Shown: positions 1 through 19,546 of the stretch, one piece after another
Layout: every line of letters begins with the position of its first letter
Position numbering within the stretch: position 1 is the stretch's first letter
IMG/VR virus record: IMGVR_UViG_3300029267_001052
Location: 1-23,342 of that record
Reading direction: 5' to 3' (one strand)
Length of the DNA: 23,342 bases
DNA from: a virus
Notes under the pieces: model-generated
Told to the model about the DNA's origin: nothing
Database searches by the model: none
The model's input: only the letters and a program-made list of their open reading frames with translations
Position numbers and translations under genes: made by a program

Positions 1-111
1 TTTGTTAAACTGATGCAAGTCGGCGGTGAAGGCGGCATCAAATTGAAAGGCAAGTACAGGACGTTTGGCCCAATTTTGGAGAGGTTAGGAGGTGAAGGCG
101 GCATCAAATGA
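1..111 (+). CDS. C-terminal end of an unknown protein (5' partial)
   Basis: Frame 1 is open from the first base to a TGA at 109-111 and encodes 36 residues; its start lies outside the window. The peptide holds the sequence GGEGGIK twice, once near the middle and once as the very last residues, encoded by an 18-base direct repeat. The stop overlaps the ATG of the next gene (ATGA), which supports translational coupling and a real coding frame. The fragment is too short to assign a family, and no function can be given. Confidence 0.6.
   Translation, partial: FVKLMQVGGEGGIKLKGKYRTFGPILERLGGEGGIK
25..42 (+). repeat. 18-bp direct repeat, copy 1 (pairs with 91-108)
   Basis: The 18 bases at 25-42 recur exactly at 91-108, 66 bases later and in the same reading frame. 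Each copy encodes GGEGGIK. The second copy also supplies the AGGAGG-like ribosome binding region before the ATG at 108, so the repeat serves both as coding sequence and as the leader of the next gene. Confidence 0.8.
91..108 (+). repeat. 18-bp direct repeat, copy 2 (pairs with 25-42)
   Basis: This is an exact second copy of 25-42. It encodes the last residues of the upstream protein and ends on the first base of the next start codon. Confidence 0.8.
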
Positions 112-317
112 ACTATTGCAAAATCTGCGGAACACCGCTGAAAAAAAGGAAGTTTTGTCCCGGCGATTGTGCGAGACTCGCACAATTCGCCAAACGAATG
201 AGGAGAACGATACGTGATTGCGATTCAACCAACGACGACATGTTCCACGATGGCATACAAAATGCAATTGCTCGAAGCAAGAAAACTTCGGGGCAAGAGC
301 GGAGTCAAGGCGTTTGA
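108..317 (+). CDS. small zinc-ribbon protein
   Basis: A 69-residue protein with two cysteine pairs near the N-terminus (C4, C7 and C17, C21). The spacing fits a small zinc knuckle of the kind found in many phage proteins of unknown role. It is followed by a basic stretch (KRMRRTIR) and a polar tail. The ATG overlaps the upstream stop by four bases and is preceded by AGGAGG at a long spacing. The last third overlaps the next gene in another frame by about 100 bases, which is more than usual, so the true end product or the next start may differ. Nucleic-acid binding is likely from the zinc knuckle and basic charge, but this is inference. Confidence 0.55.
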   Translation: MNYCKICGTPLKKRKFCPGDCARLAQFAKRMRRTIRDCDSTNDDMFHDGIQNAIARSKKTSGQERSQGV

Positions 318-786
318 CCGCGCCAAAATACTTTGTGCCGTTTTCGATGATGATGAGTTCCGGGCAGAGTGTGGCAACCTCGACGACTTCCGCGCAGCGG
401 CATTGCTGGATGAATACGTGGATGACCTCGCCGTCGGATTCCTCGATCTGCGGGCCATGTACAAATACTATCCACGTCGATCCAGTTGGCGAGAAGGCCG
501 TCTCGGAAAAATGCTGCGCGAAATGCTGCGGGCCAATGAAACCGTTATTCCGGCAGCGCGGCCGCCCCGCGTGGCAACAGCCGAAACTCGGAAACAACTA
601 ACGCAACAACTCGAAGAGGCGCGGCGGGAAAAGGCACGCCTCAAGCAAACAAAAGAAGACGAACTGATTGCATTCCGCCAGACAAAAGAAACGGAGCTGG
701 CCCAATTGCGCAGTCAGATTATGAAGCTGAAAGCCGAAAATAATCGGCTTCGACAACTCGTCATCGACCTCGGAGGCACGCCCTAG
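214..786 (+). CDS. coiled-coil protein of unknown function
   Basis: A 190-residue protein. The GTG start has AGGAG eight bases upstream; a later in-frame ATG at 250 lacks a clear binding site. Residues about 30-110 are a mixed charged globular region. Residues about 118-185 form a long heptad-like coiled coil rich in E, K, Q and R, ending in leucine-spaced segments (LRSQIMKLKAENNRLRQLV). No catalytic motif is seen. It lies upstream of the recombination genes, so it could be a structural or DNA-associated partner, but I do not recognise the family. Confidence 0.7.
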   Translation: MIAIQPTTTCSTMAYKMQLLEARKLRGKSGVKAFDRAKILCAVFDDDEFRAECGNLDDFRAAALLDEYVDDLAVGFLDLRAMYKYYPRRSSWREGRLGKMLREMLRANETVIPAARPPRVATAETRKQLTQQLEEARREKARLKQTKEDELIAFRQTKETELAQLRSQIMKLKAENNRLRQLVIDLGGTP

Positions 787-834
787 TAAAGCTACCAATC
801 GTACACAAAACGTGGACAGAAAGGAGTCACTCAA

Positions 835-1227
835 ATGCCAAGCGGCCAAGAGGGGGAACACGACACGACCGCCACGATCCCACTCGCGGCGTTGTCGCCT
901 GAAACCATCCAACGCACGGGCCGTGCATGTCGCGGTGAATCGTTGGGCTTCGGTGGGTTCACTTGCAGGTGCTTCGCCACACAGCGGGACGAGGATTTAC
1001 GGACGAACGGCGAAGTCGTCATGGCCAAAGCATTCGAGTCGCTACGGCCGGACTGTGAGAGGCTAATGGACGTGGCCAACGCCGTAGACGCCATCGACGT
1101 ACCGGCTGGCGTGGCGACGGAGGCCGCTGCCAAAGTCGATGATATCCTGTTCGATGCATACCAACGGATCATGGACGTTGTCCAAGACATTTGCGGGTGC
1201 AAGAAAAGCGAGGCTGGCCGACAATAG
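835..1227 (+). CDS. hypothetical protein
   Basis: A 130-residue protein with a strong AAGGAG at 821-826, eight bases before the ATG. The first 50 residues are polar and contain a CRC pair; the rest looks helical and acidic (about residues 62-120), ending with CGCKK. No known domain is recognised. An internal ATG at 1021 would give only the helical half, but its binding site is poorer. It stands alone between the coiled-coil protein and the nuclease gene, with short gaps on each side. Confidence 0.6.
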   Translation: MPSGQEGEHDTTATIPLAALSPETIQRTGRACRGESLGFGGFTCRCFATQRDEDLRTNGEVVMAKAFESLRPDCERLMDVANAVDAIDVPAGVATEAAAKVDDILFDAYQRIMDVVQDICGCKKSEAGRQ

Positions 1228-1358: not shown

Positions 1359-1422
1359 TTGCGACAAAAGCCATCCGGCTGAGTTGGCCGGACTCCCCAA
1401 CTGAACAGGAAGGAACGATTAC

Positions 1423-2520
1423 GTGAACCAATTATCACCACCTGCCACCGCAGCGATTGCCGCAATCAATGCCCAAACGCAGGGTGTCGATGACGACAGG
1501 ACTCAGTTGGTTGCCGCCAAGTGTCGTGCCCTGGTGGTGGGATACAACGCACGCTGGCGCGATCAAAGCTATAAACCCCTGGCGGTGGAGCAGTTCGTTC
1601 AGGCTGATCTTGTCAATCCCGACACCAATTCCATAAGTCGTACATTTCGAATAGCTGGGAAGGAAGACGTGATTGTCACGGATGGCAGTCGCCGATTGCT
1701 TATGGACGCAAAAACATGCAGCCAAGACATATCCGACCCTAATGCCCCATATTGGCAACAGTTGGCTATCGAAGCACAACCGACACACTACATGCTGATT
1801 GATTGGCTTAGCGGCCTGAAATGTGACGGCGCGGTTTGGGATGTTTTGCGCAAGCCAACCATAGCTCCCAAAAAACTCACGAAAGCCGATCGTGCGCGGG
1901 TATGTGCGGAGCGATCCTACTGCGATACGGCAATGTCCGAAGACACCCTGGCCGCCGTGCCGGTCAACGACCGTGAAACCCTGGAAATGTACGAAGCTCG
2001 GCTTGTCAAAGATTGCACAACGATCCGTCCTGATTGGTACTTTCAACGACGGTTTCTCGTGCGGCTGGACGCGAACATCCTGGAATATGCCAGGGAATTG
2101 TGGCAGCATTCTCAAGATATTTTGGCAACGCGGGCCATCATGCGAAAACATTCAAAAAACGGAGATACTCGCCTTCCGGTGCGCAATTCCGGAGCCTGTA
2201 TGTTGTATGGGTCGCCGTGCGTTTTCCTGGGGTTGTGTTCAGATTACGACCAACCAAATTCCGACCGGTGGCAGCGCAAGCCGACCGTTCATTCCGAACT
2301 ACCGGCCCTGGATGGGGATGGCCGCGACGTGTTGACGAACAGCCGCATTCGTTGTTTCCAAACATGCCGACGAAAGCACTACTACCAGTACGAATTGGGC
2401 ATCGAACGTCAAGATGCCGAAGAACGCGAAGCACTCTTTTTTGGGAGCCTCTGGCATACGGCCTTAGAGGCATGGTGGAACGCACAGCGAAAGGAAACCA
2501 ATTGTGGCTGCACCAACTAA
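1423..2520 (+). CDS. Cas4/RecB-like PD-(D/E)XK nuclease with apparently permuted domain order
   Basis: A 365-residue protein with a GTG start preceded by AGGAAGG. Motifs of the RecB/Cas4-type exonuclease fold are present but in unusual order. Residues 52-125 hold the catalytic core: E56-x-F, GKED (D82), the MDAKT signature (D95, K97) and QPTHY (Q119, Y123). Cysteines C259, C266 and C272 look like an Fe-S set. The segment that normally opens these proteins comes last: SRIRCFQTCRRKHYYQYELG at 307-326, then FGSLWHTALEAWW with the G341-xxx-H345 motif. C315 would be the fourth Fe-S cysteine. The neighbours, an AAA ATPase and an SSB-like protein, fit a phage recombination set that resects DNA ends. 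The protein may be a functional circular permutant or a rearranged gene. Confidence 0.82.
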   Translation: MNQLSPPATAAIAAINAQTQGVDDDRTQLVAAKCRALVVGYNARWRDQSYKPLAVEQFVQADLVNPDTNSISRTFRIAGKEDVIVTDGSRRLLMDAKTCSQDISDPNAPYWQQLAIEAQPTHYMLIDWLSGLKCDGAVWDVLRKPTIAPKKLTKADRARVCAERSYCDTAMSEDTLAAVPVNDRETLEMYEARLVKDCTTIRPDWYFQRRFLVRLDANILEYARELWQHSQDILATRAIMRKHSKNGDTRLPVRNSGACMLYGSPCVFLGLCSDYDQPNSDRWQRKPTVHSELPALDGDGRDVLTNSRIRCFQTCRRKHYYQYELGIERQDAEEREALFFGSLWHTALEAWWNAQRKETNCGCTN

Positions 2521-3397
2521 CACCCGGCAAGTTGCCGGCGAAACTGCGATGGTAGCGGGATCAACAAGTCGCCGCTTTTCCATGGCCGACATTACCAAGT
2601 CCGGCAACGGTCTGCCAAACCGTTATGTCATCCACGGCGTGGAGGGCATCGGCAAAACATCTCTGCCCGCCTATGCACCGTCGCCGATCTTTATTGAGAC
2701 TCGCGGCGAGACAGGATTGGAGACCCTCATCGACGCCAATCGCCTTCCCGCACTACCGCACTTTCCGGCAGTTGAAACATGGATGGAACTATTAGGCATC
2801 ATTCAGATGCTTACGGATGATCCGCACGACTATCGCACCCTGGTCATTGACACGCTCAATGGCGCTGAAAAGCTGTGCCACGAGGAAGTGTGTCGTCGGG
2901 ACTTCAAAAACGACTGGACTGATTCGGGATTCATGGGCTATATGCGCGGCTTTGAAGTGGCCTGTGCGGATTGGTTGGATTTGATTCAACGCCTCGACGC
3001 ATTGCGCGAAAGGCGCAAGATGGCGATCGTTTGTCTTTGTCACACTTGTGTCAAGCCGTTCAAAAATCCCGAGGGGCCCGACTACGACCGATGGCAGCCT
3101 GATATGCACCACAAAACGTGGGGCCTCACCAACAAGTGGTCCGACGCCATTTTGTTCATGAACTACGAAACCTTTACGTCGAAGGATGACAAAAAGAAAT
3201 GCAAGGCCACTGGCGGCCAAACGCGCATCATGTACACCGAGCGTTGTGCGGCCTACGACGCCAAAAACCGCATGGGGCTTCCGTCGGATATTGTCCTTGG
3301 CAACAGCGGCCAAGAGGCGTGGAACGCTTTCTCGTCGGCGCTGAAAACAGCCAAACAAACCAACCAACCAACATCGAATGGAAAGGAAGGTGTCTAA
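2504..3397 (+). CDS. Sak4-like AAA ATPase (RecA-fold, AAA_24 type)
   Basis: A 297-residue protein. Walker A is at residues 45-52 (GVEGIGKT) and a Walker B-like strand is RTLVID (D116). Later signatures are CLCHTCVKPF, RWQPDMHHKTWGL and a basic AKNRMGLP stretch, all typical of the phage AAA_24 ATPases related to Sak4 single-strand annealing proteins. The GTG at 2504 has AAAGGA eight bases upstream and overlaps the nuclease gene by 17 bases. An internal ATG at 2581, matching the place where homologues usually begin, has no good binding site. With the nuclease before it and the SSB-like gene after it, it likely promotes ssDNA annealing or strand exchange in phage recombination. Confidence 0.82.
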   Translation: MAAPTNTRQVAGETAMVAGSTSRRFSMADITKSGNGLPNRYVIHGVEGIGKTSLPAYAPSPIFIETRGETGLETLIDANRLPALPHFPAVETWMELLGIIQMLTDDPHDYRTLVIDTLNGAEKLCHEEVCRRDFKNDWTDSGFMGYMRGFEVACADWLDLIQRLDALRERRKMAIVCLCHTCVKPFKNPEGPDYDRWQPDMHHKTWGLTNKWSDAILFMNYETFTSKDDKKKCKATGGQTRIMYTERCAAYDAKNRMGLPSDIVLGNSGQEAWNAFSSALKTAKQTNQPTSNGKEGV

Positions 3398-4020
3398 TGG
3401 CACGACCGTATTACGCTCCCGGCCGATACTGGGGGAAAATTGTTCACCAAGCACTCAGCGAATCTTCCAACGGCAATCCGCAAGTCATCATTACTTTCGA
3501 GGTAATTGGCGCGGTGAATCCCGACGATCCTGATGGCGATCTGTTGCCGTGCGGCCAACGCAATGAACGATCTGTATTTCAAACCATTACCGACAAAACT
3601 GTGGAATGGGTGACCGACAATCTCCGCAAACTTGGATTTACGAGCAATTCATTTGCCGACATCGACCTCGATAGTACCAATTGTTGCGATTTACGTAACC
3701 GTGAAGCGCCATTTTGGTGCGACCACGAGGCGCATTATAAGACCGGCGATCCGGTGGAACGCTGGAAAGTCGCGTCGGATGGCAACGGCCTGCAAGTGAA
3801 GCCACTGGCCCCGAAGGGCGTTCGGCAGCTTGACGCAATGTTCGGCAAATACCTCAAACAAAAACCGGTGGAACCCTCGGAAACCGAGGCGTTTGCGGCT
3901 CGCGTAACAGCACCTGTCGCCAAGACAACCCCCGAGGATATTAGCAAACTCAACGAGAAGTTTGATAAGGCAATGGATGCTGATAAATCATCCTCGAAAG
4001 AAGACGATATTCCTTGGTAG
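3397..4020 (+). CDS. single-stranded DNA-binding-like protein with SSB-type tail
   Basis: A 207-residue protein. The ATG at 3397 shares its first base with the upstream TAA stop (TAATG) and is preceded by GGAAGG. The body (about 1-150) is beta-rich with cysteines (C52, C96, C97, C108) and resembles phage DUF669-type ssDNA-binding proteins. Residues about 155-195 form a polar linker. The last residues, KEDDIPW, closely match the acidic partner-binding tip of bacterial SSB (DDIPF), with Trp replacing Phe. Position directly after the nuclease and Sak4-like ATPase supports an ssDNA-binding role in phage recombination and replication. The tail is seen directly; the fold is inferred. Confidence 0.72.
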   Translation: MARPYYAPGRYWGKIVHQALSESSNGNPQVIITFEVIGAVNPDDPDGDLLPCGQRNERSVFQTITDKTVEWVTDNLRKLGFTSNSFADIDLDSTNCCDLRNREAPFWCDHEAHYKTGDPVERWKVASDGNGLQVKPLAPKGVRQLDAMFGKYLKQKPVEPSETEAFAARVTAPVAKTTPEDISKLNEKFDKAMDADKSSSKEDDIPW

Positions 4021-5611: not shown

Positions 5612-6018
5612 TATTCCGAAAAGCCAACCCGATCACCGACCAGGAAGTCCGCGAGCGCTGGCGAAGCGAAGGCGACCACGGTGACCGCTGCCAGGTGTGT
5701 CACAGGCCGTGGGCTCGGGCGGGGTGGCGCGGGATGTGGGTCCACCACATCATCCACGGCGCGAACGGGCGAAGCGACGAGTCTTGCAATTTCCTTTTCG
5801 TTTGCGGTCGGTGCCACGACATGATCCACGACGGCTGCTACCGCGACGAACAGACGAAGGAGTTACAGCCGCACATAACGCTCGGCATGGTGCTCTGGAT
5901 CAAGTCGCACACATCGGAGTGGGACGCGGATCGGCTGGCGGCGTTGCATCACCGGCGATTGCCGGACTTGGAGATACTGGCCCCGTACTATTTGGAGGAG
6001 CGAACGCGATGGCTGTGA
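5608..6018 (+). CDS. HNH endonuclease
   Basis: A 136-residue protein. The ATG overlaps the upstream TGA (ATGA); longer upstream readings of the frame lie inside the replication gene. The zinc-bound HNH fold is clear: C28-x2-C31, the catalytic H46-H47-I-I, N61, C66-x2-C69-H70 and H74. The C-terminal third is a helical extension. HNH nucleases are common in phages as packaging cofactors, homing enzymes or recombination nucleases. Here it lies between replication and methyltransferase genes, far from any visible terminase, so a DNA-processing role is more likely than packaging. The last ten bases overlap the next gene. Confidence 0.85.
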   Translation: MIFRKANPITDQEVRERWRSEGDHGDRCQVCHRPWARAGWRGMWVHHIIHGANGRSDESCNFLFVCGRCHDMIHDGCYRDEQTKELQPHITLGMVLWIKSHTSEWDADRLAALHHRRLPDLEILAPYYLEERTRWL

Positions 6019-6035
6019 CCTGTTATCGCTGCAAC
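6002..6035 (+). repeat. methyltransferase 5' repeat, copy 1
   Basis: The 34 bases at 6002-6035 are identical to 6777-6810. They include seven bases upstream of the start codon and the first 27 coding bases (the MAVTCYRCN end). After one mismatch a further 17 bases also match. Confidence 0.85.
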
Positions 6036-6773
6036 CGCTGGCCGTGCGAGTGCAAGGATGGGATTGCGCTGATCCACGGCGACTGCCGCGACGTGCTGCC
6101 GTTGCTGGAGCCGGGGAGCGTGGATTTGGTGCTGACGGACCCCATGTACGGCATTTCGATGCCGGGAGTTGCACACAATCACGCTGACAGCAGAGGGACA
6201 AGGCGGTTTGATTTCTTTCCGGGCGACACACCCGAACACGCGGGCGCACTGGCACTTGATATTTGCGATCCACGGTGGCGGGGCTTCAGTATGACTGCGA
6301 GCTTCTATGTTTGGTGCGGTCACGAGCAATTCGGCCCGCTAGTCGAACAGTTTACGGGTGCGGGCCTCCGAACTAGATTCCTCGTTTGGGCCAAGAAGTG
6401 CCCGGCACACGCACCGCCCGGAAGCGGCTGGCCAAGTGGCGCGGAACTGTGCGTGTTTGCATATCCGCGAAAGGGTCGAACCTGGACGCATCACGGGAAG
6501 GATACACCGAAAAGCAATGTGCTGGTGTCTGATTCATTCCGCCACGGGCAACCGGGAAAACTTGACCACCCCACGCAGAAGCCAATAGCCGTGATTGAGC
6601 CATTAGTGCGAGCGTCATCCCGCCCCAGAGACACCGTTTTCGACCCCTTCGCCGGCAGCGGCACGACCGGCCGTGTCTGCAAGGACTTGGGCCGCAAGTG
6701 CATCATGGTCGAGATTGAAGAGAAATACTGCGAGATAGCCGCGAACCGGCTGCGGCAGGAAGTGCTGTTTTGA
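6009..6773 (+). CDS. DNA adenine-N6/cytosine-N4 methyltransferase, beta-type, DPMY variant
   Basis: A 254-residue protein; ATG preceded by GGAGG. It opens with a compact cysteine cluster (C5, C8, C13, C15) and IHGDC. Motif IV is TDPMYG at 43-48, where Met replaces the usual second Pro of DPPY. The HPTQKP motif and the SAM-binding DPFAGSGTTG come near the C-terminus, so the order (IV first, I last) is that of beta-class amino-methyltransferases. No cognate restriction gene is seen, so it is probably an orphan enzyme that protects phage DNA or alters regulation. Its first and last segments are nearly identical in DNA to those of the next gene, while the core is unrelated. The DPMY change may affect activity or base preference. 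Confidence 0.88.
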   Translation: MAVTCYRCNRWPCECKDGIALIHGDCRDVLPLLEPGSVDLVLTDPMYGISMPGVAHNHADSRGTRRFDFFPGDTPEHAGALALDICDPRWRGFSMTASFYVWCGHEQFGPLVEQFTGAGLRTRFLVWAKKCPAHAPPGSGWPSGAELCVFAYPRKGRTWTHHGKDTPKSNVLVSDSFRHGQPGKLDHPTQKPIAVIEPLVRASSRPRDTVFDPFAGSGTTGRVCKDLGRKCIMVEIEEKYCEIAANRLRQEVLF

Positions 6774-6786
6774 AAGGAACGCGATG
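6720..6786 (+). repeat. 67-bp methyltransferase 3' repeat, copy 1
   Basis: A perfect 67-base repeat of 7939-8005. It spans the last coding codons of methyltransferase 1, its stop, the AAAGGA ribosome binding site and the ATG of the next gene. Confidence 0.9.
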
Positions 6787-6810
6787 GCTGTGACCTGTTA
6801 TCGCTGCAAC
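6777..6810 (+). repeat. methyltransferase 5' repeat, copy 2
   Basis: Identical to 6002-6035. It forms the leader and N-terminal codons of methyltransferase 2 and partly overlaps the 67-bp repeat at 6720-6786. Confidence 0.85.
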
Positions 6811-7992
6811 TGCTGGCCGTGCGAGTGCCGCGACGGCATTGCGCTGATCCACGGCGACTGCGTGGAGGTGATGGCCGCGTTGGAGGCCGAGAGCATTACG
6901 GCCGTCGTGACCGACCCGCCGTATGGTTTGGGGTTTATGGGGAAGGGATGGGACCACGGGATTCCTGGCGTACCGTTTTGGAAGGCCGTCCTACGAGTCG
7001 CCAAGCCCGGCTGCCACATGCTGGCATTCGGAGGCACGCGCACCCACCACCGTCTCATGTGTGCGATTGAAGACGCCGGGTGGGATGTGAGGGATTGTCT
7101 CGGTTGGATTTACGGCTCGGGCTTTCCAAAAACGTTAAACGTGTCAAAAGCTATCGACAAGGCGGCGGGAGCAGAGAGGATTCGCGGAAATCGCAAGGTA
7201 TTTGCGGACGGAACAAAAGCACGGAACAGCAAGCAGCGTGCGGAAGGATGGCAACGTCCGTTTATGGAAGACGGCAACTGGCAGGGGCAGTACGAAACCG
7301 CCCCCGCGACCGAGGCCGCAAAGCAATGGGACGGCTGGGGTACGTCATTGAAACCGGCCTGGGAGCCCGTCGTCCTTTCTCGCAAGCCGCTATCCGGCAC
7401 GGTCGCCGCGAACTGTACGGAGTATGGGGCAGGGGCGTTGTGGGTGGATGGGTGTCGGATTGAAGGGCACAATCCATCTATTGATCTTCGAAAATCTGCC
7501 GCAAAATCTGGTAAGGCTGGAATGGATATGCACAGTTCCAATCGTGTTAAATGTGGACTGCCAGCTTTTAGTAAAGACTTGGCTCAATATGTCGAAGGTC
7601 ACGATGGGGAAAAATTAGGCCGCTGGCCCGCGAACCTAATCCACGACGGCAGTGAGGAAGTGGTCAGGGTGTTTACGGTCGGGAAGGCCGATAAGGATTT
7701 CACGGCTAACTCCGGTTCCGCCGCCCGCTTTTTCTATTGCGCGAAGGCCAGCAATGGCGAACGCGGCAATGGTAACAGCCACCCCACGGTCAAACCGCTC
7801 GGCCTGATGTCCTACCTGTGCAAGCTCCTATCACAACCGGGCCACAAGGGCACGCTCTTGGACCCGTTTGCCGGTAGCGGCTCGACACTCATTGCCGGGT
7901 GCCGGTGGTTCGAGCGAGTCATCGGTATCGAACAGAATGAGAAATACTGCGAGATAGCCGCGAACCGGCTGCGGCAGGAAGTGCTGTTTTGA
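6784..7992 (+). CDS. DNA N4/N6 methyltransferase, beta-type, with long target-recognition insert
   Basis: A 402-residue protein with AAAGGA before the ATG. The N-terminal cysteine cluster matches that of the previous enzyme. Motif IV is canonical, TDPPYG at 43-48. A long insert (about residues 110-310) separates it from SHPTVKP and DPFAGSGST, giving the beta-class order. About residues 227-277 are encoded by a visibly more AT-rich stretch, suggesting a replaced target-recognition segment. The last 17 residues or so are identical to those of methyltransferase 1. It is likely a second orphan modification enzyme with another target. Phage methyltransferases of this kind usually defend against host restriction; the target cannot be read from sequence. 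Confidence 0.9.
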   Translation: MAVTCYRCNCWPCECRDGIALIHGDCVEVMAALEAESITAVVTDPPYGLGFMGKGWDHGIPGVPFWKAVLRVAKPGCHMLAFGGTRTHHRLMCAIEDAGWDVRDCLGWIYGSGFPKTLNVSKAIDKAAGAERIRGNRKVFADGTKARNSKQRAEGWQRPFMEDGNWQGQYETAPATEAAKQWDGWGTSLKPAWEPVVLSRKPLSGTVAANCTEYGAGALWVDGCRIEGHNPSIDLRKSAAKSGKAGMDMHSSNRVKCGLPAFSKDLAQYVEGHDGEKLGRWPANLIHDGSEEVVRVFTVGKADKDFTANSGSAARFFYCAKASNGERGNGNSHPTVKPLGLMSYLCKLLSQPGHKGTLLDPFAGSGSTLIAGCRWFERVIGIEQNEKYCEIAANRLRQEVLF

Positions 7993-9037: not shown

Positions 9038-9916
9038 ATGAACGACAGACGCTACGTCGACGACCAGCGCGCGGCCGAGTGGGCGGAGCGACTCACCGAC
9101 CAGCGCAAGCCAAGCAAGGCCACGGCGAGGAGGTGGGTGACGCTGCTGCTGGAGGATCGGGCGAAGGATCGAGCCGAGATCGAGCGGCTGCGGGGCGTAG
9201 CTAACATTCTGGCAGACGTGAGGGAAGGAGAAATGAGCCAGGCAACTAAAATTGAATGGTGCGGTGCGCCTTGGCCAATTCCCAACGTCTGGCTCGGCGT
9301 TTCTATCGAAAACCAACGGACCGCCGACGAACGGATACCGTGGCTGCTGAGATGCCCGGCGGCCGTGCGTTTCGTTTCGGCGGAGCCGTTGCTGGGGCCG
9401 TTGGATTTGCGGCCGTATCTCGGGCACGTTCACGCTGACGCCATTGGCGCGCCGCAACTACCGAGCGGCTACGCGCCACCGCTGAACGATCAGCCATGGT
9501 ATCGGGGCCTCGACTGGGTCATCGTCGGCGGTGAGTCCGGCCCCGGCGCTCGTCCCATGCACCCGGATTGGGCATGTTCGATCCGCGACCAATGCCAAGC
9601 GGCGGGTGTGCCGTTCTTTTTTAAGCAATGGGGCGAGTGGCAGCCAGCAAAACGCGAAGCCACCGCTGCCACCAATATGCCGTTTGGGCCGCGTGATTTT
9701 CACGGATTGGGCTGCGTTGACAAATCGAATTGGCAAGGCACGTTCGCCGTCTGGTGCGAAGGTCCGCGAGAACATGAATGGGGCTGGGCTTATGTCGGAA
9801 ATCCCAACGCACGCCCTGATTGGCACCATCAGGTGATGGCGGGCGTCGGCAAGAATGCTGCCGGCCGTTTGCTCGACGGCCTCGAGTGGAACGAAATGCC
9901 GGAGGTGATGAAATGA
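9038..9916 (+). CDS. DUF5131 (Gp37/Gp68-type) protein lacking the radical-SAM half, fused to a short N-terminal helical segment
   Basis: A 292-residue reading frame with GGAGG before the ATG. Residues 1-65 are a helical, charged segment. At M66 (position 9233, its own GGAG nearby) the typical DUF5131 start TKIEWC begins, but it jumps at once to [15 protein letters not shown]. Complete family members carry more than a hundred residues between these points, including the CxxxCxxC iron-sulfur motif; here that part is absent. The rest is well kept: [33 protein letters not shown] and [10 protein letters not shown]. The product therefore cannot do radical-SAM chemistry. It may be a deletion remnant or a binding-only version. 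Translation could begin at 9038 or 9233. Confidence 0.75.
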
Positions 9917-10110: not shown

Positions 10111-10421
10111 AAATACTCCGGTGGGTTTTCTGGCATATCGTCTATGCTGTGCGTCCGCGACCAAAGGAAGTGGAAGCATATCTCGCTTGCATGAATCGCC
10201 TTCGCTCGCCGTGGTGGAGGTTTAAGCCTTCGGTCTATCATAATCCAGACGGCAAGATGTGGCATGTTTACCTCGACAACGAATCGACATACACCGTGCC
10301 GCACCGCTGTTTTCGAGTTGACTTGCATGTCGGGGAGAAATCGGGCCGAATCGTGGGGTTGGACATTTGGGACGAGTCGCTAATCCAAGCAGCCGCTGAG
10401 GCGGCAGGAGGGACGACATGA
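10107..10421 (+). CDS. hypothetical protein
   Basis: A 104-residue protein starting at a GTG that overlaps the upstream stop (GTGA), with AGGAGG close by. The N-terminus (ILRWVFWHIVYAV) is hydrophobic but short; the rest is mixed alpha/beta with a pattern of aromatic residues. It ends AAAEAAGGTT, similar to the AAEAAGGEK end of the preceding small protein, and in both cases the DNA for this tail carries the next gene's ribosome binding site. The family is not recognised. Confidence 0.6.
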   Translation: MKILRWVFWHIVYAVRPRPKEVEAYLACMNRLRSPWWRFKPSVYHNPDGKMWHVYLDNESTYTVPHRCFRVDLHVGEKSGRIVGLDIWDESLIQAAAEAAGGTT

Positions 10422-11317
10422 AACTACAAAGGCGAGTCAAAAAGCTGTTGGCAAAATACGACCACCCAGCCGTACTAACTGATCCGATCCTTGATGGATT
10501 TATCGACGCCTACGAAGTGTTCGACAATATCGCCGAAACTAAGGCCTATATCGATGCGGCCAATGCTGCCGGGCGGTTGCCGAAGTTGGTTATCGCGGCT
10601 GATGCTGCCGGATGGTTGCCGAAGTTGGTTGACGCTGCCGACGCTACCAGGCGGCTACGGGCGTTGGTTGACGCTGCAGACAACGTAGGGCGGTTGCGTG
10701 CGTTGGTTATTGAGGCCAACGCTGCCGGACTGTTGCAGGAGTTGGTTGGCGCAGCCGACGATGATCAGATGCGCAAAATATGTGACGCCGCTGGTGTAGT
10801 GTGCTTTTCCCGAAAGGAGTGCTGCAAAATGTTCGGAATCCTATCACCGCAAACGGTCTCGATGCGCTGGATGTTGCGGCGCGATCTGCCCGAGGTGATG
10901 GCCATCGAGGCCGAGAGTTTTGGCTATCCGTGGACCGAGGCTGAGTTGTTGCAGATTTTGCAACAACGCAACTGCCTCGGGCTAGTCGCGGAAATCGGCC
11001 GTCGCGTGGCTGGATTTGTGGTCTACGAGATGGCCGCCGACCATATCTACATCCACAATCTCGCGGTTGCCATGTCGCGGCGCGGCCAGGGTGCTGGAAC
11101 CGCTTTGATCGGCGAGACCATCAAAAAGCTCGGCGCGCGCCGCCGAATCGTCGCGTGCGCCAGCGAGTACAACCTAGAGGCACAGCTTTTCTTTCGTGCC
11201 GTAGGGTTTCGGGCGACCGAGATTCTGCGGAACTATTACGACGGTAGGTACGATGCCTATCAGTTCACTTATGGAGATCGGATATGGGACGCAAGAAAGC
11301 CAGTATCAACAATCTGA
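10418..11317 (+). CDS. 13-residue-repeat domain fused to a RimI-like GNAT acetyltransferase
   Basis: A 299-residue frame; ATG overlaps the previous stop, with GGAGG upstream. Residues 47-111 are five 13-residue helical repeats of the form AAxAAGRLPKLVx. A cysteine-containing linker follows. From about 145 the protein is a GNAT domain: LPEVMAIEAESFGYPWTEAE, then NLAVAMSRRGQGAGTALI (acetyl-CoA loop) and LFFRAVGFRAT, close to RimI-type N-acetyltransferases. An in-frame ATG at 10829 has AAAGGAG nine bases upstream, so a free GNAT protein is probably also made. The target is unknown; RimI modifies a ribosomal protein, but phage relatives may modify others. Confidence 0.78.
   Translation: MKLQRRVKKLLAKYDHPAVLTDPILDGFIDAYEVFDNIAETKAYIDAANAAGRLPKLVIAADAAGWLPKLVDAADATRRLRALVDAADNVGRLRALVIEANAAGLLQELVGAADDDQMRKICDAAGVVCFSRKECCKMFGILSPQTVSMRWMLRRDLPEVMAIEAESFGYPWTEAELLQILQQRNCLGLVAEIGRRVAGFVVYEMAADHIYIHNLAVAMSRRGQGAGTALIGETIKKLGARRRIVACASEYNLEAQLFFRAVGFRATEILRNYYDGRYDAYQFTYGDRIWDARKPVSTI
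10556..10750 (+). repeat. five tandem 39-base (13-residue) coding repeats
   Basis: The DNA encodes five successive 13-residue units: AANAAGRLPKLVI, AADAAGWLPKLVD, AADATRRLRALVD, AADNVGRLRALVI and EANAAGLLQELVG. The units diverge at the DNA level but keep exact period and the Leu/Val positions, which points to a helical solenoid or amphipathic stack. Confidence 0.85.
10829..11317 (+). CDS. possible separately initiated GNAT product
   Basis: This nested in-frame start lies inside the repeat-GNAT frame. Its ATG has AAAGGAG with nine-base spacing, a better site than many starts in the window, and the resulting 162-residue protein is a complete GNAT domain of usual size. It may be made alongside the longer fusion. 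No promoter is visible, so the evidence is the ribosome binding site and domain boundary only. Confidence 0.4.
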   Translation: MFGILSPQTVSMRWMLRRDLPEVMAIEAESFGYPWTEAELLQILQQRNCLGLVAEIGRRVAGFVVYEMAADHIYIHNLAVAMSRRGQGAGTALIGETIKKLGARRRIVACASEYNLEAQLFFRAVGFRATEILRNYYDGRYDAYQFTYGDRIWDARKPVSTI

Positions 11318-12129
11318 TTGTCATTTCTGACTTGCATTGCGGCTGTCGCATGGGCCTCTGCCCGCCGCAAGGGATGAAGCTCGACGATGGCGGGCGCGTG
11401 ACGCCGAGCAAACTGCAAGACACTGTGTGGCGTTGGTGGGAAGAGTTCTGGAATGTTTGGATACCCGACGTGACGCACGGTGAGCCCTACACCGTGGTGC
11501 TCAATGGCGATGCAGTGGATGGTGTCCATCACAACTCGACAACCCAAATGAGCCAGAATATCGAGGATCAAGTCGAGATGACTTATGAGATTTTGCGGCC
11601 AGTGGTGGAGGCGTGCGAGGGACGCTACTACCATTTGCGAGGTACGGAGGCTCACGTTGGGAAGAGCGGCGTGGACGAGGAACGACTCGCCAAACGACTC
11701 GGCGCAATTCCCGATGAAGCTGGCAAGCACGCACGCTGGGAAATGTGGATTCGTGTTGGGCGTGGCCTCGTGAACATCATGCACCATATCGGCACGGCGG
11801 GCAGTATGGCTTACGAAACGAGCGCGGTTCAGAAGGAACTGGAACAGGCAATCGTCGAGGCCGGACGGTGGAACAACGAAATCCCCGATATTGTGGTGCG
11901 TAGCCATCGGCATAGAAATGTCGAGGTGCGGAGCCAGTCGTATAAGGGCTGGGCCGTGGCATTCACGACGCCCGGCTGGCAACTCAAGACACCGTTTGTT
12001 TTTCGCGTGGCGGGTGCGCGACAATCGCAACCGCAGATCGGCGGATCATTGATCCGCTGCGGAGACCAAGACGTTTTTACGCGGCATTTCTTGAAAAACA
12101 TTGCACGCCCAAAAATCGAGGTGGCATGA
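11284..12129 (+). CDS. calcineurin-like metallophosphoesterase
   Basis: A 281-residue protein with GGAG before the ATG; it overlaps the GNAT gene by 34 bases. The dimetal site is visible: D16-x-H18 (SDLHCG), GDAVDG (D76, D79), a changed GTEAH in place of the usual GNHD/E (E122, H124), MHHIG (H167, H168), and SHRH (H208, H210). These phage enzymes are annotated as phosphodiesterases or nucleases; the exact substrate is unknown. The Asn normally found in GNH is a Thr here, which may alter catalysis. The stop overlaps the next start (ATGA). Confidence 0.82.
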   Translation: MGRKKASINNLIVISDLHCGCRMGLCPPQGMKLDDGGRVTPSKLQDTVWRWWEEFWNVWIPDVTHGEPYTVVLNGDAVDGVHHNSTTQMSQNIEDQVEMTYEILRPVVEACEGRYYHLRGTEAHVGKSGVDEERLAKRLGAIPDEAGKHARWEMWIRVGRGLVNIMHHIGTAGSMAYETSAVQKELEQAIVEAGRWNNEIPDIVVRSHRHRNVEVRSQSYKGWAVAFTTPGWQLKTPFVFRVAGARQSQPQIGGSLIRCGDQDVFTRHFLKNIARPKIEVA

Positions 12130-12389
12130 TGGCGAAAAATAGCATTGCATACGAAGACTGGCGCGCCGAAATTGATCGGCTCTATCCGGACCAGACCAAT
12201 GAAGGGATGACGGCGGCAGAAATTGCCGAAGCAAGCAACCGCAGCGAATCCACTATCAGGCGCATGTTGCGGCAGGGAGTGGCATCGGGGAAGTATGTGC
12301 AAGGCGTCACACGTCGCCCTCGGGCAGATGGTGGTATGATGCCGGTGACCGTGTATTCGATCGTCCAACCGAAAGGAAAGAAAAAGTGA
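12126..12389 (+). CDS. winged-helix/HTH DNA-binding protein
   Basis: An 87-residue protein with two ATGs in tandem at the overlap with the previous stop. Residues about 25-50 (GMTAAEIAEASNRSESTIRRML) are a classical helix-turn-helix, followed by a basic wing-like segment (VTRRPRADGGMMPVTVYSI). The GC-rich surroundings have no evident operator. It may be a small phage transcription factor. Confidence 0.65.
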   Translation: MMAKNSIAYEDWRAEIDRLYPDQTNEGMTAAEIAEASNRSESTIRRMLRQGVASGKYVQGVTRRPRADGGMMPVTVYSIVQPKGKKK

Positions 12390-12463
12390 ACACCCGTGCC
12401 GATGCAGTCGTTTACCTGAGTGGGCCGATAACGCTCGGCAAACTCAACGAAGGGAGGTGGTAG
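12386..12463 (+). pseudogene. 25-residue ORF resembling the start of a DUF4406/nucleoside deoxyribosyltransferase-like protein
   Basis: A GTG overlapping the upstream stop (GTGA), with GGAAAG before it, opens a 25-codon frame ending at a TAG at 12461-12463. Its VVYLSGPITLGKLNE segment looks like the first strand and loop of DUF4406 or deoxyribosyltransferase-like proteins (YISGPIT...N), but the frame stops immediately. The final codons carry the GGGAGG site for the next gene. It is probably a remnant kept for coupling, or chance. Confidence 0.4.
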
Positions 12464-12464
12464 C

Positions 12465-12854
12465 GTGGAACGCCCAACCATTTGCATCGACCTCGATGGC
12501 GTCCTAGCGTCCTGGAAACATGGGACGTTCGACGCGATCGGCCCGCCGGTCCCCGGCGCAATAGATTTTACGCAACGATTGATCGAATCATATCGCATCA
12601 TCATTCATACGTGCCGATGCACAGAGGAGTTGTATTCCGCAGACCGCGCCCAACTTCGCCTGGAAATCGATATGTGGCTGTCCGCCCACGGCTTCGCGTA
12701 TGACTCGATCTGGATCGGACAAGGGAAGCCGCTTGCCATAGCGTACATCGACGACCGCGCCGTCGTGTGTCGCCCAGAGCACAACGACATTGCGTTCCAG
12801 AAGGTGGAATCTAAGCTGCTGTCACTCGTCGAGCAGGAAGGCGGTGCAACGTGA
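12465..12854 (+). CDS. HAD-superfamily phosphatase
   Basis: A 129-residue protein; GTG preceded by GGGAGG. The nucleophile motif is DLDGVLA (D9, D11), a Thr follows strand two (IIIHTCR), K88 is the conserved lysine and YIDDRAV (D96, D97) is the metal-binding motif. Size and motifs fit small HAD hydrolases of phages, often nucleotidase-like. Its neighbours (deoxyribosyltransferase-like remnant and DUF6378) suggest nucleotide metabolism, but the substrate is not known. Confidence 0.8.
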   Translation: MERPTICIDLDGVLASWKHGTFDAIGPPVPGAIDFTQRLIESYRIIIHTCRCTEELYSADRAQLRLEIDMWLSAHGFAYDSIWIGQGKPLAIAYIDDRAVVCRPEHNDIAFQKVESKLLSLVEQEGGAT

Positions 12855-13135
12855 ATGTACTTCAGGAAGCCGATCAACTGACGGCCGGGGACCGCCAGCG
12901 AGACTATGACCACCCACTGCCGAACCACACGCGGATCGCCGCGCTGTGGAACGCCTATCTCGGCATCCGACGCGAGCCCTCGGGGCCCGTCTCGGCCGAG
13001 GACGTGGCCACGATGATGATTCTGCTGAAAGTGGCACGCGACGTTTTCACGCCGAAATACGACAATCTCGTTGATATTTGCGGGTATGCGCGGTGCCTCG
13101 AGCGAATGCGGGAAGGACGGGAATCGTGCTCGTAA
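12851..13135 (+). CDS. DUF6378-family protein (MazG-like all-alpha)
   Basis: A 94-residue protein; GTG overlaps the upstream stop (GTGA). The sequence shows EADQLTAGDRQRDYDHPLPN, then IAALWNAYLG, DVATMMILLKVARD and DNLVDICGYA, which match the phage DUF6378 family. The alpha-helical pattern with D/E residues (SAEDV, DNLVDICGY) is reminiscent of all-alpha NTP pyrophosphohydrolases such as MazG, but activity is inferred. Pairing with the HAD gene supports nucleotide-pool functions. Confidence 0.75.
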   Translation: MNVLQEADQLTAGDRQRDYDHPLPNHTRIAALWNAYLGIRREPSGPVSAEDVATMMILLKVARDVFTPKYDNLVDICGYARCLERMREGRESCS

Positions 13136-13407
13136 CGGTCAACGGCAAGCGCTGGCAAATGCAGTTTGGCCGCACACCCACCGGCTGGTATGGATTCTGT
13201 GATACGCCCAATCAGCCGAAAAAGCGGATTATCTTGCGGCCGTCGCTTCGCAAAAACCCACAACTACTGCTCGATACGACGATCCATGAGATGTTGCACG
13301 CGGGCGGGCCTATTCTCGATGAGGATTTTGTGGACACGATGGCAACCGACATCGCACGAGCGCTCATCAAAATAGGCTGGCGGCTCCCGTCGGGGCCCAA
13401 TTTGTAA
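13126..13407 (+). CDS. small HExxH putative zinc metallopeptidase
   Basis: A 93-residue protein starting at a GTG with GGAAGGA upstream, overlapping the DUF6378 gene by ten bases. A longer reading from 13078 has no binding site. The motif TIHEMLHA (H54, E55, H58) is the zinc signature of gluzincin/SprT-like peptidases. N-terminal beta-strands precede it and DFVDTMATDIARALIKIGW follows, with D/E residues as possible third ligand. Such small phage proteins are common but their substrate is unknown. Confidence 0.72.
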   Translation: MLVTVNGKRWQMQFGRTPTGWYGFCDTPNQPKKRIILRPSLRKNPQLLLDTTIHEMLHAGGPILDEDFVDTMATDIARALIKIGWRLPSGPNL

Positions 13408-13451
13408 GTAAAATCACTCGCCACGGATGGCTCATCTCACGAGGGCGCGGC

Positions 13452-13808
13452 ATGAGGCCGCGCGAGACCATGCTATCAGTCGAGACGCAGCGAACAATTA
13501 TTTCCCTTCTCCACACCACCGACTATAGCCGTCGGGAAATCGCACAAATCGCGGGCGTTAGCCGATCGACGGTCGGAATTCTCAAGTGTCGTGGCGTGGT
13601 CATCGAGCCGCGCAGGCCAACCAGCAGTCGGCGTGTTGTGGAATACGCCGAGTTCGGCCGCAAGAATCCCAGGGCACGTTGTCCGCGCTGCGGCGTGGAG
13701 GTGGAGATGCCGTGTCTCGCCTGTTACGTGCGTCGGCTGAAATCCGAGACATGGTTACAACGGACGATTCGAGAACGCAATGAGAGGGGTGGCCGAAAAT
13801 CAGAGTAG
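13452..13808 (+). CDS. HTH plus zinc-ribbon DNA-binding protein
   Basis: A 118-residue protein. Residues about 25-46 (YSRREIAQIAGVSRSTVGIL) form a helix-turn-helix of the recombinase/sigma-like type; C77, C80, C88 and C91 form a zinc ribbon; a basic tail follows. The ATG at 13452 has GAGGG nearby; an ATG at 13470 is an alternative start. It is likely a sequence-specific DNA-binding regulator and sits at the end of the accessory cluster. Confidence 0.7.
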   Translation: MRPRETMLSVETQRTIISLLHTTDYSRREIAQIAGVSRSTVGILKCRGVVIEPRRPTSSRRVVEYAEFGRKNPRARCPRCGVEVEMPCLACYVRRLKSETWLQRTIRERNERGGRKSE

Positions 13809-13841
13809 CTTTTTTTCAAAAAAACTATCCAATAGCAAATT

Positions 13842-14090
13842 ATGCGAAAGGCCGACGCGAAACCACCGAGAATCTGCCGGGTCTGCGGCGAGGAGATCAC
13901 GGGCAGGCGGTGCGCGCATTGCGAACGGATTCGGCTGCGAGACGACACCCGAAAAGCCGTCTACGGGAATCCGTACATGACGGAAGCTCCTGTCAACGGG
14001 CGGCGCAGAAAAAGCACCGACGACGACCGGACGTATGACGACCGGCTGCGCGAGGGGTTTCGGCTCATTTCACGCGGGGGTGACTGCTAG
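13842..14090 (+). CDS. small zinc-ribbon protein
   Basis: An 82-residue protein with C12-x2-C15 and C24-x2-C27, then a charged tail (RRRKSTDDDRTYDDRLRE). No Shine-Dalgarno sequence is seen before the ATG; instead an AT-rich stretch with seven T and seven A (13810-13824) lies upstream, one of the few such stretches here. It may be expressed from its own promoter there. It resembles the first zinc-ribbon protein of the window in type only. Confidence 0.6.
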   Translation: MRKADAKPPRICRVCGEEITGRRCAHCERIRLRDDTRKAVYGNPYMTEAPVNGRRRKSTDDDRTYDDRLREGFRLISRGGDC

Positions 14091-14092
14091 CC

Positions 14093-14761
14093 ATGCTTTC
14101 AACGCTGATCGGAAAAGCCGGAATTACGTTGGCGCTGGTAACCGTGTGCTTGGTCGCGCTGGCCATCGTGGCTCGCAACTGGTCGTGCCGAAAGCCACGT
14201 GAACCTCGACCACCGAGAATTATCACTGCTGGCCCCTACGATGTGGTTGACTCGCCGACTGGCGCGAGTCTGGTAGTTGCAGCCGGACGCCGAGGACGGA
14301 CCCGCACCATTATTCTCGCCGGAGTCGCCGTCCCGGCGTCCGGGGCATTTGCTCAGGTCTCTGCCGATCATCTGCGAGGCATGGCGGGAGGCTCGATCAC
14401 CGTCCAATACGAGCGGCATGGGCTGCTTCGCGGAGAGGCTCCTGGAGATTTTTTGGCATGGTTCGAGGAGCACGCTCCTGGTTGTGAGATTTGCTCAATA
14501 CCACCGACCCCCAAAGAGCCCGAGCCGCAATTCTGCGAGGAGGCGCAATCGAGGCTGGAATCATTATTGGTAGACGAGCCCCTAGAGGCTCGTGGCCCCC
14601 TCACAGGTCTTGTGTTCGGTGCCAGTGGGATCAATCTGAATCTCGCTCAGATTGCGGGTGGTTATGCCAAAATCACGGCAGGCTACGATGCCCCCAAGGA
14701 ATGGCGAGAGGCGGAAGCTGAGGCGAAGAAACAAAAACTTGGTGTCTGGGGAGGGAAATAA
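14093..14761 (+). CDS. membrane-anchored nuclease-fold (SNase-like) protein, degenerate
   Basis: A 222-residue protein. Residues about 8-28 are a transmembrane or signal-anchor segment. From about 45 onward the pattern resembles staphylococcal-nuclease-like OB folds: IILAGVAVPASG at the place of the usual IDAPE, GSITVQY, then LTGLVFGASGINLNLAQIAGGYAKI and the C-terminal EAEAKKQKLGVWG helix. The Asp and Glu of the catalytic loop are absent, so it is probably not active as a nuclease. A binding role at the membrane is likely. It is the first gene of the membrane-protein cluster. Confidence 0.55.
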   Translation: MLSTLIGKAGITLALVTVCLVALAIVARNWSCRKPREPRPPRIITAGPYDVVDSPTGASLVVAAGRRGRTRTIILAGVAVPASGAFAQVSADHLRGMAGGSITVQYERHGLLRGEAPGDFLAWFEEHAPGCEICSIPPTPKEPEPQFCEEAQSRLESLLVDEPLEARGPLTGLVFGASGINLNLAQIAGGYAKITAGYDAPKEWREAEAEAKKQKLGVWGGK

Positions 14762-14764
14762 ATC

Positions 14765-15349
14765 ATGTTGCCTGAGTGGATTGTTATCGGCGGGGTTTTG
14801 TTTTGGGGTATTCTGGCAGTTTTGTCTTTTGTGGCCATGATTTCCATTCATAACCGATGCGAAGGATTTGCATTGACTGCATTGGGATTGTTTGCCGTTG
14901 TCTGTATTCTGTTTGGCGACCTCTACCCGTGGGCAATCGCAAATGCTTCCGTGCTGATTTGGTGTGCCGTCGCGTATCCGCTGATTGGTGTGGCCTGGAG
15001 CTTTCCTCGATGGTTTTTGTTTCTCGATAGGGTTAAGTCAGAATACAAATCGCAGCTTGCCGAGTTTGGCAAACTGAGCAAGGACAAATGGGGAGAGTGG
15101 GGACGAGTCGTTGTCTGTAGTTGGTCATTGTATGATGCTGGTTTGCAATTCGATGCAGAAACAGGCAAGCTGACGCCACCACCATTCCATAGCAACAAGG
15201 AACGGATTTTTGGATGGATGTTGCTCTGGCCGTGGTCGATGCTGGACGCTCTTCTTGGTGAGCTGGTCTTTCGCGTTCTTCGGTGGGTGCGCGATTCGCT
15301 GCAGCGGTTTTATCAAGCGATCTCTGACAAGATGTTCTCGGAAATCTAG
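14765..15349 (+). CDS. multi-pass membrane protein
   Basis: A 194-residue protein with three likely membrane segments at about residues 5-27, 36-55 and 60-80, then a soluble region, and an amphipathic or re-entrant segment near 150-170 (RIFGWMLLWPWSMLDALLG). No enzyme motif is seen. Its position inside a run of small membrane proteins suggests a holin-like or envelope role, but the family is not recognised. Confidence 0.65.
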   Translation: MLPEWIVIGGVLFWGILAVLSFVAMISIHNRCEGFALTALGLFAVVCILFGDLYPWAIANASVLIWCAVAYPLIGVAWSFPRWFLFLDRVKSEYKSQLAEFGKLSKDKWGEWGRVVVCSWSLYDAGLQFDAETGKLTPPPFHSNKERIFGWMLLWPWSMLDALLGELVFRVLRWVRDSLQRFYQAISDKMFSEI

Positions 15350-15356
15350 TGGCGGG

Positions 15357-15578
15357 ATGAACAAAATGCTTAATTTACGAATCGTTTGCACGACGGTCTG
15401 CTTCGCGTGTATCGCTGCCGGGGTGGTGCTTGGGTTGTTTGCGATTTGGGGCGGCATTGATGAAGCCGTGGCGTTAAAGGGTGTCCTGTCGGTACTGCTG
15501 GTCTTCGTAGCATCATACGGTGTGCCGTATGTCAATGACATCATGCATCCGGTAACCAACAAAAATTGGGAGGACTGA
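15357..15578 (+). CDS. small two-helix membrane protein
   Basis: A 73-residue protein with two hydrophobic helices (about 7-30 and 37-58) and a short polar tail. The ATG at 15357 has a weak GGCGGG site just upstream; an ATG at 15366 is also possible. Size and topology resemble class II holins or superinfection-type membrane peptides, but this rests on topology only. Confidence 0.6.
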   Translation: MNKMLNLRIVCTTVCFACIAAGVVLGLFAIWGGIDEAVALKGVLSVLLVFVASYGVPYVNDIMHPVTNKNWED

Positions 15579-15581
15579 AAA

Positions 15582-15890
15582 ATGTCTTTTGCTTCATGGG
15601 CTATGATAATCGGCTTTGCGATTTTGGTTGGCCTTGTAGCTGGCCGATTCAAGAGTGCCTGGGAGTGGATTGTGGGGGCGTGGGCATTCATTTCTCGAAA
15701 GAAGGTGCCGACGACAACCAATTCCTTCGTCCTGGATTGGATCGACCACAGCGAGTCGGCGGCTGCCCAAGCCTTGTTGCGATTGGTGCGGAGCAACTTT
15801 CGGCAACGGGGTGATGCGGACGGAGTAAAACAGTGTACTGCGCTAATTGTTGCGGCTGCGGAATGGGACGATGACGAGCCCGAGGAGTAG
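15582..15890 (+). CDS. small membrane-anchored protein
   Basis: A 102-residue protein with one N-terminal membrane segment (about 5-24) and an acidic cytosolic tail ending DDDEPEE. GGAGG lies before the ATG. It is closely packed between two other short membrane proteins. Function unknown. Confidence 0.65.
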   Translation: MSFASWAMIIGFAILVGLVAGRFKSAWEWIVGAWAFISRKKVPTTTNSFVLDWIDHSESAAAQALLRLVRSNFRQRGDADGVKQCTALIVAAAEWDDDEPEE

Positions 15891-15893
15891 ATC

Positions 15894-16292
15894 ATGGAGA
15901 CGATTCGCAGGTATGCGTTGTGCGTTGCCATTGGCCTTATCCTTGGCGGTGCGGCCGTCGAGTACGGGCCGATGGCGCTACGGCTGCTGCCCGGCTCCGA
16001 TTGGGGAACGCCGGTCGATGCGATGATCGTCTACGAGTCGGGATTTGACACGGTACCAACGCGAGAGTTCACGAAGATGATTACGCACGCTCCACGAGAT
16101 TGTGGCGTTAGGGTCATCGACAAAGACACGCTCGGAAAAGGTAAGCAGCCATCGGCAGAATTGCAACCATACCTCGATGCCGCGAAGGGCCATGACCTGC
16201 CCGTGCTGGTGTCGCATTGGGCCAGCGGATTGTATTCGGCGAAACCCTGCCCTGAGACGCTTGAAGGCCTGAAAGCGGAGGTTGGGAAATGA
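15894..16292 (+). CDS. hypothetical membrane-anchored protein, thioredoxin-like region
   Basis: A 132-residue protein with an N-terminal hydrophobic segment (about 6-24). The rest reads MIVYESGFDTVPTREFTKM, then GVRVIDKDT and LPVLVSHWASG, which resembles a thioredoxin fold in strand order but has no CxxC. GAGGAG precedes the ATG, and its stop overlaps the protease start. It may be a partner of that protease, which is inferred from coupling only. Confidence 0.55.
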   Translation: METIRRYALCVAIGLILGGAAVEYGPMALRLLPGSDWGTPVDAMIVYESGFDTVPTREFTKMITHAPRDCGVRVIDKDTLGKGKQPSAELQPYLDAAKGHDLPVLVSHWASGLYSAKPCPETLEGLKAEVGK

Positions 16293-17068: not shown

Positions 17069-17454
17069 TGAGAGGTCTGCTTTTGATTTTGTGCGTAGCG
17101 TTGTTGGTGGTTGGCACTGACAACCTCGTCACAAAGGTTTCGGCGGTGGCGCCACAAGAGGAGGCAACGCTTGCTCCGCCTGTGATTGAAATTGGGGCAC
17201 CGCCGTCTTCGGCCGCTATCACGGTGGCCGATTGCGCGACGTGCCCCAACCAAGGCACGTGTCCTTACATTGTGAGTCAGACGGTGGATCAATCTCAAGA
17301 CGAAGTGCAAGCAACTAACGAATCTTGCGAGGCACGGCCCGGAGGTCCGCTGCGTCGGATTGCCCAAGCGAGGCCTGTACGGGCGGTGATTCGCGCGAAA
17401 CCGGCACGGCGGGTACTCAGAGGTATCGGCCGGATTGTGTGTCGGCGGCGATGA
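17068..17454 (+). CDS. secreted or membrane-anchored small protein with basic tail
   Basis: A 128-residue protein. The N-terminus is hydrophobic with a following polar segment, like a signal peptide (about 1-25, possible cleavage near VSA). A cysteine-bearing middle (CATCPNQGTC) could bind metal or form disulfides. The C-terminal 40 residues are very basic (RRIAQARPVRAVIRAKPARR). The stop-start TAATG overlap couples it to the peptidase. A spanin-like or envelope-binding role is possible but not shown. Confidence 0.65.
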   Translation: MRGLLLILCVALLVVGTDNLVTKVSAVAPQEEATLAPPVIEIGAPPSSAAITVADCATCPNQGTCPYIVSQTVDQSQDEVQATNESCEARPGGPLRRIAQARPVRAVIRAKPARRVLRGIGRIVCRRR

Positions 17455-17467
17455 CAGGAAGCCTCCC

Positions 17468-17500: not shown

Positions 17501-17516
17501 AACTCTTATTGGAGTC

Positions 17517-18097: not shown

Positions 18098-18111
18098 TAG
18101 CGGAGGCGATA

Positions 18112-18449: not shown

Positions 18450-18451
18450 CC

Positions 18452-18646: not shown

Positions 18647-18651
18647 ACGCT

Positions 18652-19533: not shown

Positions 19534-19546
19534 AAGAGGAATAAGC

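Follow-up and report, generated by a model that had tools for sequence, protein, structure and literature searches.

A circularly permuted Cas4/AddB-type PD-(D/E)XK nuclease encoded beside Sak4 in a clade of phages

Introduction

The stretch of DNA analysed here (the window; 23,342 nucleotides of the IMG/VR virus record IMGVR_UViG_3300029267_001052) carries at positions 1423-2520 an open reading frame in which the parts of a Cas4/RecB-like nuclease stand in an unexpected order: the catalytic core and a cysteine cluster lead, and the segment with which such enzymes ordinarily begin comes last. Is this a real protein whose chain has been rotated and, if so, how did it arise, how widely is it found and what might it do? 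An earlier note, made from the letters alone, had read the ORF as a circular permutant. Here we report that its product is indeed a circularly permuted form of a Cas4/AddB/RecB-type PD-(D/E)XK nuclease, and that it is very probably a phage recombination exonuclease, active by prediction, whose gene was permuted in an ancestor.

Results

Family motifs and profile matches in rotated order

The gene and its product can be laid out as follows, with counts that refer to an alignment of 60 permuted sequences:

1407..1414, plus strand: Shine-Dalgarno-like AGGAAGGA, 8 nt before the GTG start, read directly from the sequence
1423..2520, plus strand: circularly permuted Cas4/AddB-type PD-(D/E)XK nuclease, 365 aa, start GTG, stop TAA
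1507..2256, plus strand: ancestral C-terminal part, now leading (residues 29-278), matching PHROG 1218 positions 94-303 and the AdnA nuclease (Z 9.5)
1657..1668, plus strand: GKED, residues 79-82, with the first catalytic Asp, D82 (58/58 rows with a residue there)
1705..1716, plus strand: DAKT, residues 95-98, the D/E-x-K catalytic motif (K97 in 58/58)
1777..1791, plus strand: QxxxY, residues 119-123, a RecB-family motif (60/60 rows)
2197..2238, plus strand: C259, C266 and C272, predicted ancestral C-terminal Fe-S cysteines (each 60/60)
2287..2301, plus strand: VHSEL, residues 289-293, relic of the ancestral C-terminus, equivalent to the C-terminal VHPEL of linear relatives
2302..2328, plus strand: linker PALDGDGRD from the old C-terminus to the old N-terminus, at the same position across permutants
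2329..2346, plus strand: VLTNSR, residues 303-308, relic of the ancestral N-terminus, where the PF12705 match starts and linear relatives have their N-terminus
2365..2367, plus strand: C315, predicted ancestral N-terminal Fe-S cysteine (60/60; 43 residues past C272)
2443..2457, plus strand: GSLWH, residues 341-345, the GxxxH motif of RecB/Cas4 nucleases (H345 in 60/60)

Residues 29-278 thus hold the second helical segment, the catalytic core and the three-cysteine cluster, while CRRKHYY (residues 315-321) and GSLWH follow in the same frame. In the 60 permuted rows the four cysteines never vary, nor do Q119, Y123 and H345; G79, D82 and K97 stand in each of the 58 rows that extend to them, and residue 95 is D or E wherever a row has a residue there. 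The earlier note had put the core (GKED, DAKT, QxxxY) at residues 79-123, the cysteines at 259-272 and the N-terminal-type segment with GSLWH late in the chain, all in one frame, and each of these placements holds. Its description of the first cysteine segment as CxxxxC is right as to the segment and wrong as to the spacing, which is C311-x3-C315; of these two cysteines, C315 is conserved throughout (60/60) and C311 in only 32/60.

By score the protein belongs to PF12705 (47.1 bits; cut-off 22), and the PD-(D/E)XK residues D82, D/E95, K97, Q119, Y123 and H345 are kept in 58-60 of the 60 permuted rows. The usual order of this family, with GxxxH before the core, is not found: residues 305-356, which match PF12705 positions 3-54, come after the core, and for this reason we class the protein as a permuted PF12705 variant. 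Four conserved cysteines that form an Fe-S staple define the Cas4/AddB Fe-S nucleases (PMC3466216, PMC5704561). All four are present in each of the 60 permuted rows (C259, C266, C272 and C315), but instead of one N-terminal and three C-terminal to the core, the three come first and the fourth lies 43 residues later.

As the earlier note had proposed, the two halves were compared with profiles separately, and each matched its own part of PHROG 1218 with the order swapped. The first 291 aa match positions 94-303 (E 4.6e-13), and the last 74 aa match positions 6-62 (E 1.5e-12) as well as PF12705 positions 3-54 (E 2.5e-9). When the sequence is rotated back, a single unbroken PHROG 1218 match runs from 8 to 303, at 102 bits against 94 unrotated. 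Judged by these profile matches, the rotated order far exceeds chance.

The joint and the new ends

Linear relatives start near M...LITNSR and finish with VHPEL... soon after the three-cysteine cluster. In the permutants, a linker of about 10 residues leads from the VHSEL tail straight into the old start, VLTNSR; in other words, the two ends of linear relatives, the C-terminal VHPEL and the N-terminal GDGRD-LITNSR, now meet within the chain, and because both ends remain there the joint of the permutation can be read. The GDGRD of the linker resembles the N-terminal extension of one linear relative, L154 (ESKGDGRDLITNSR). The new ends sit where linear proteins pass from the GxxxH helix to the next helix, as in the linear relative L130 (GLEAWWRGAGDQRLDAALGALEG...GYHVRW), a stretch that varies in linear proteins from 24 to 49 residues (over positions 51-93 of the linear relative L152). 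The suggestion that the start of the ORF continues its own end is borne out by L130, whose sequence GLEAWWRGAGDQRLDAALGALEGEADPFELAKAQVLLTGYHVRW reads uninterrupted across the permutant's new termini. The predicted proximity of C272 and C315 is also found: they are separated by 43 residues in the window protein and by 36-51 across the permutants, whereas in the ancestral order they belong to opposite ends of the chain.

Spread and origin of the permutation

Among the fetched loci, profiles for the core and for the N-terminal half, applied separately, sorted the non-identical ORFs into 72 rotated, 70 ordinary and 2 undecided, linear-order homologous ORFs thus numbering at least 70. The rotated ORFs occur in viral contigs, in two planctomycete genomes and in the cultured Tunturiibacter phages Tunturi_1 and Tunturi_2, whose homologues are 48-50% identical to the window protein and colinear with it. 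An alignment-based scan gave 63 related viral loci, down to 32% identity; of two scans of genome contigs, the first gave none and the second one planctomycete MAG contig; a permutant is also present in another planctomycete genome. The earlier note had expected a permutant in a phage recombination module to be unusual: the rotated order is confirmed in that setting, but the protein is no single oddity and belongs to a large clade, and same-order homologues are found in many related phages, isolates included. A diverged permutant is present in IMGVR_UViG_2823558774_000002 (L074), a contig that, to judge by its number, may come from an isolate or a single genome and may point to a host. A Cys-rich, zinc-ribbon-like insert (CxxC...CxxC-like) lies between the core and the Cys cluster of one permuted protein (L062, 5989-7257), and such inserts are also seen in the linear L157, L168, L170 and L183.

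In trees, the permutants form one large clade (59 rows, SH-aLRT 98) and a small group, L133/L146/L184. A single permutation event would suffice to account for both, and is the simpler reading of these sequences. That the permutation arose more than once, L133/L146/L184 being an independent permutant nested among linear enzymes, we hold to be unlikely: free trees do place the three among linear enzymes, which requires two changes, and their cores favour the linear profile (243 against 176 bits for L133), but one clade withstands the AU test (p 0.31 on 54 rows, p 0.37 for the core alone, p 0.73 in a further test), with 125 rows the one-clade tree lies 23 log units above the free quick tree, and the two permutant groups are alike in cut site and linker.

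A single origin most likely proceeded, we infer, through a tandem duplication whose outer halves were then lost. Permutation has two standard routes, of which this is one (PMC3320104), and fused old termini, as found in the permutant, are exactly what it leaves. No duplicated or split intermediates were present among the fetched loci. Fission and re-fusion is a possible alternative route.

Predicted structure

The AlphaFold2 model of the window protein, built with 59 permuted relatives, is a single compact nuclease fold (pLDDT 95.9, pTM 0.91), in agreement with the permuted-nuclease reading of the 365-aa product; that of the linear L152, built with 46 linear relatives, reaches pLDDT 93.6 and pTM 0.89. 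Their secondary-structure elements correspond, with the order rotated: the linear model runs H15-23, H25-33, E36-38, H42-60 and then H63-80, H84-108 and the core, and in the permutant H6-19, H25-45 and the core lead while H306-314, H316-325, E327-329 and H336-361 trail. Against AdnA the linear model aligns over its whole length, residues 1..336 on 781..1039 (Z 16.5, rmsd 4.3, 240 aligned), and among solved structures it also aligns with ACE1, AddB and others; the permuted model aligns with the same AdnA chain only over 5..275 on 840..1039 (Z 9.5, rmsd 3.2, 181 aligned), a partial alignment that we attribute to the permutation, since a sequential aligner is expected to behave in this way with a permutant. 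Solved structures sought by sequence similarity gave only two chance antibody matches. The viral model A0A6J5NSY1 aligns to the permuted model over 357 columns (TM 0.78), so that at least one permutant, named PD-(D/E)XK nuclease, is already in public databases.

Could the rotated chain work only as a domain-swapped dimer or oligomer, with residues 303-361 completing a neighbour's core and the rotation being an adaptation to the oligomer? Sequence order alone suits intramolecular and swapped packing equally, and several relatives have long, variable C-terminal tails; but the single-chain model is confident throughout, and the short C272-C315 spacing (36-51 residues) suits local formation of the cluster, and we consider such an obligate swap very unlikely.

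Genomic setting and predicted function

Two genes follow the nuclease:

2504..3397, plus strand: Sak4-like (AAA_24, RecA-fold) single-strand annealing protein (PF13479, 1.2e-34; PHROG 124, 2.2e-36)
3397..4020, plus strand: SSB-like protein with an acidic DDIPW tail, 33% identical to the annotated Tunturi_2 SSB

The window Sak4 is 44% identical to that of Tunturi_2. A Sak4 gene lies close downstream of 68/72 permuted and 57/70 linear nuclease genes, and an SSB gene comes after Sak4 in the window, Tunturi_1 and Tunturi_2, which gives the layout of a nuclease-Sak4-SSB module, with the nuclease upstream of Sak4. Among about 20 window ORFs scanned with Pfam and PHROGs, in a record that may be a fragment, there were 0 Cas1/Cas2 matches, and the neighbours of the nuclease are Sak4 and SSB. 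In phage HK620, Sak4 anneals single strands and is stimulated by the cognate SSB (PMC5928155), and Cas4 proteins are Fe-S exonucleases (5'-3') with a four-cysteine staple (PMC3466216). On the strength of these precedents, of family and of neighbourhood, the permutant likely resects DNA ends and would thereby provide the single strands for annealing by Sak4 with SSB.

The activity itself is predicted from sequence, and RecC is described as containing an inactivated nuclease-like domain (PMC1185551); a permutant that folds but has lost catalysis, and instead assists Sak4 structurally or in loading, might be imagined along these lines. The conservation of D82, D/E95, K97, Q119, Y123 and H345 across the permutants would be unexpected for inactivated versions, and makes such a loss highly improbable.

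Elsewhere in the window, two adjacent N6/N4 DNA methyltransferase genes (5697-6773 and 6784-7992) look like tandem paralogues: they have in common one stretch of 85 bp at 93% identity and another of 71 bp at 98.6%, and the two proteins have the same end, KYCEIAANRLRQEVLF; a 53-bp stretch at 5803-5855, single here, occurs twice in tandem in a near-identical virus (L001, 7898-8003). A DUF5131 phage protein is encoded at 9038-9916 (PF07505, 1.7e-51), near a GNAT acetyltransferase gene (10418-11317). In the region 11284-22342, which includes a 931-aa ORF (19547-22342), Pfam and PHROG matches are almost absent among the ORFs scanned, and 14093-14761 gives a marginal SNase match.

Assembly and selection

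Two further IMG/VR contigs, under different dataset names, carry the gene with a 100% identical protein, and over long stretches their DNA agrees with the window at 99.3% and 99.97% identity. Because independent assemblies and cultured phages show the same order, misassembly is ruled out, and with it the junction that the earlier note had considered. Between related permutants dN/dS is 0.05-0.20, the changes being mostly silent; on this ground, and on that of the invariant motifs, we rejected a pseudogene reading. The natural null hypothesis, an assembly artefact or a decayed gene accidentally fused with part of another nuclease, found no support and has next to no chance of being right, given the rotated gene in two further contigs, isolate phages and dozens of diverged relatives, the purifying selection on the permutants, and a neighbourhood with no leftover second N- or C-half.

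Discussion

Taken together, these results describe what is very probably an ancestrally permuted recombination exonuclease. The old C-terminus, just past the three-cysteine cluster, is joined to the old N-terminus through a linker of about 10 residues, and new termini have opened in the loop between the GxxxH-bearing helix and the next. The catalytic and predicted Fe-S residues are all kept, the same fold is predicted to close, and the gene retains the ancestral slot before Sak4. The Fe-S staple, which would already tie the old termini to each other, may be why the permutation was tolerated, and the permutant would resect DNA ends and hand single strands to Sak4 and SSB in phage recombination or replication. 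The permutation could also have been adaptive, altering maturation of the nuclease or its docking on the co-encoded Sak4/SSB, since the staple, which had spanned the chain, was made local (C259-C315, 57 residues) and the free ends were moved to another loop; we think this rather unlikely but, if true, it would explain retention by a whole phage clade.

Natural permutants that can be read at both old ends, and that have plentiful unpermuted relatives in the same slot, are uncommon, and a recombination enzyme held by a predicted Fe-S staple offers a direct test of how permutations spread and of what the staple is for. There is also a practical side: profile annotation may split or truncate such phage nucleases, because their ancestral N-terminal motifs sit C-terminally. 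In the literature searched we found no permuted Cas4/RecB-type or phage PD-(D/E)XK nuclease; an earlier mention is possible in the superfamily review doi 10.1093/nar/gks382.

The permutant can be set beside four known groups. (i) Circularly permuted DNA methyltransferases (PMC3320104, PMC1829167) are, like the window nuclease, natural permutations of a DNA-acting enzyme; their fold differs, and duplication intermediates are documented for them, in contrast to the nuclease loci fetched here, where the joint adjoins a predicted Fe-S staple. (ii) The nuclease domains of AdnA and AddB and the Argonaute-associated Cas4 ACE1 (PDB 9np6, 4cei, 9iac) have the PD-(D/E)XK fold in common with the permutant and are among the best solved matches for permuted and linear models alike, but they are linear in order and, unlike the permutant, Adn/Add are fused to helicases and ACE1 is associated with Argonaute. 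(iii) Tunturi_1 gp59 and Tunturi_2 gp56 are the colinear permuted homologues described above, followed by Sak4 and SSB; their records are annotated "exonuclease" only, without mention of permutation. (iv) The linear Cas4-like phage exonucleases (PF12705/PHROG 1218), such as the "Cas4 family exonuclease" of Yersinia phage vB_YenM_P744 (L123) and those of metagenome viruses L124-L132, have the motifs, cysteines and helical elements of the permutant and mostly the same slot upstream of Sak4; their chain runs from LTxSR to VHPEL, ends that the window protein has joined to each other, its own termini lying past the GxxxH helix. With respect to its known family, the permutant is thus the same in fold, predicted chemistry and operon slot, and it is the topology of the chain that has been altered, clade-wide.
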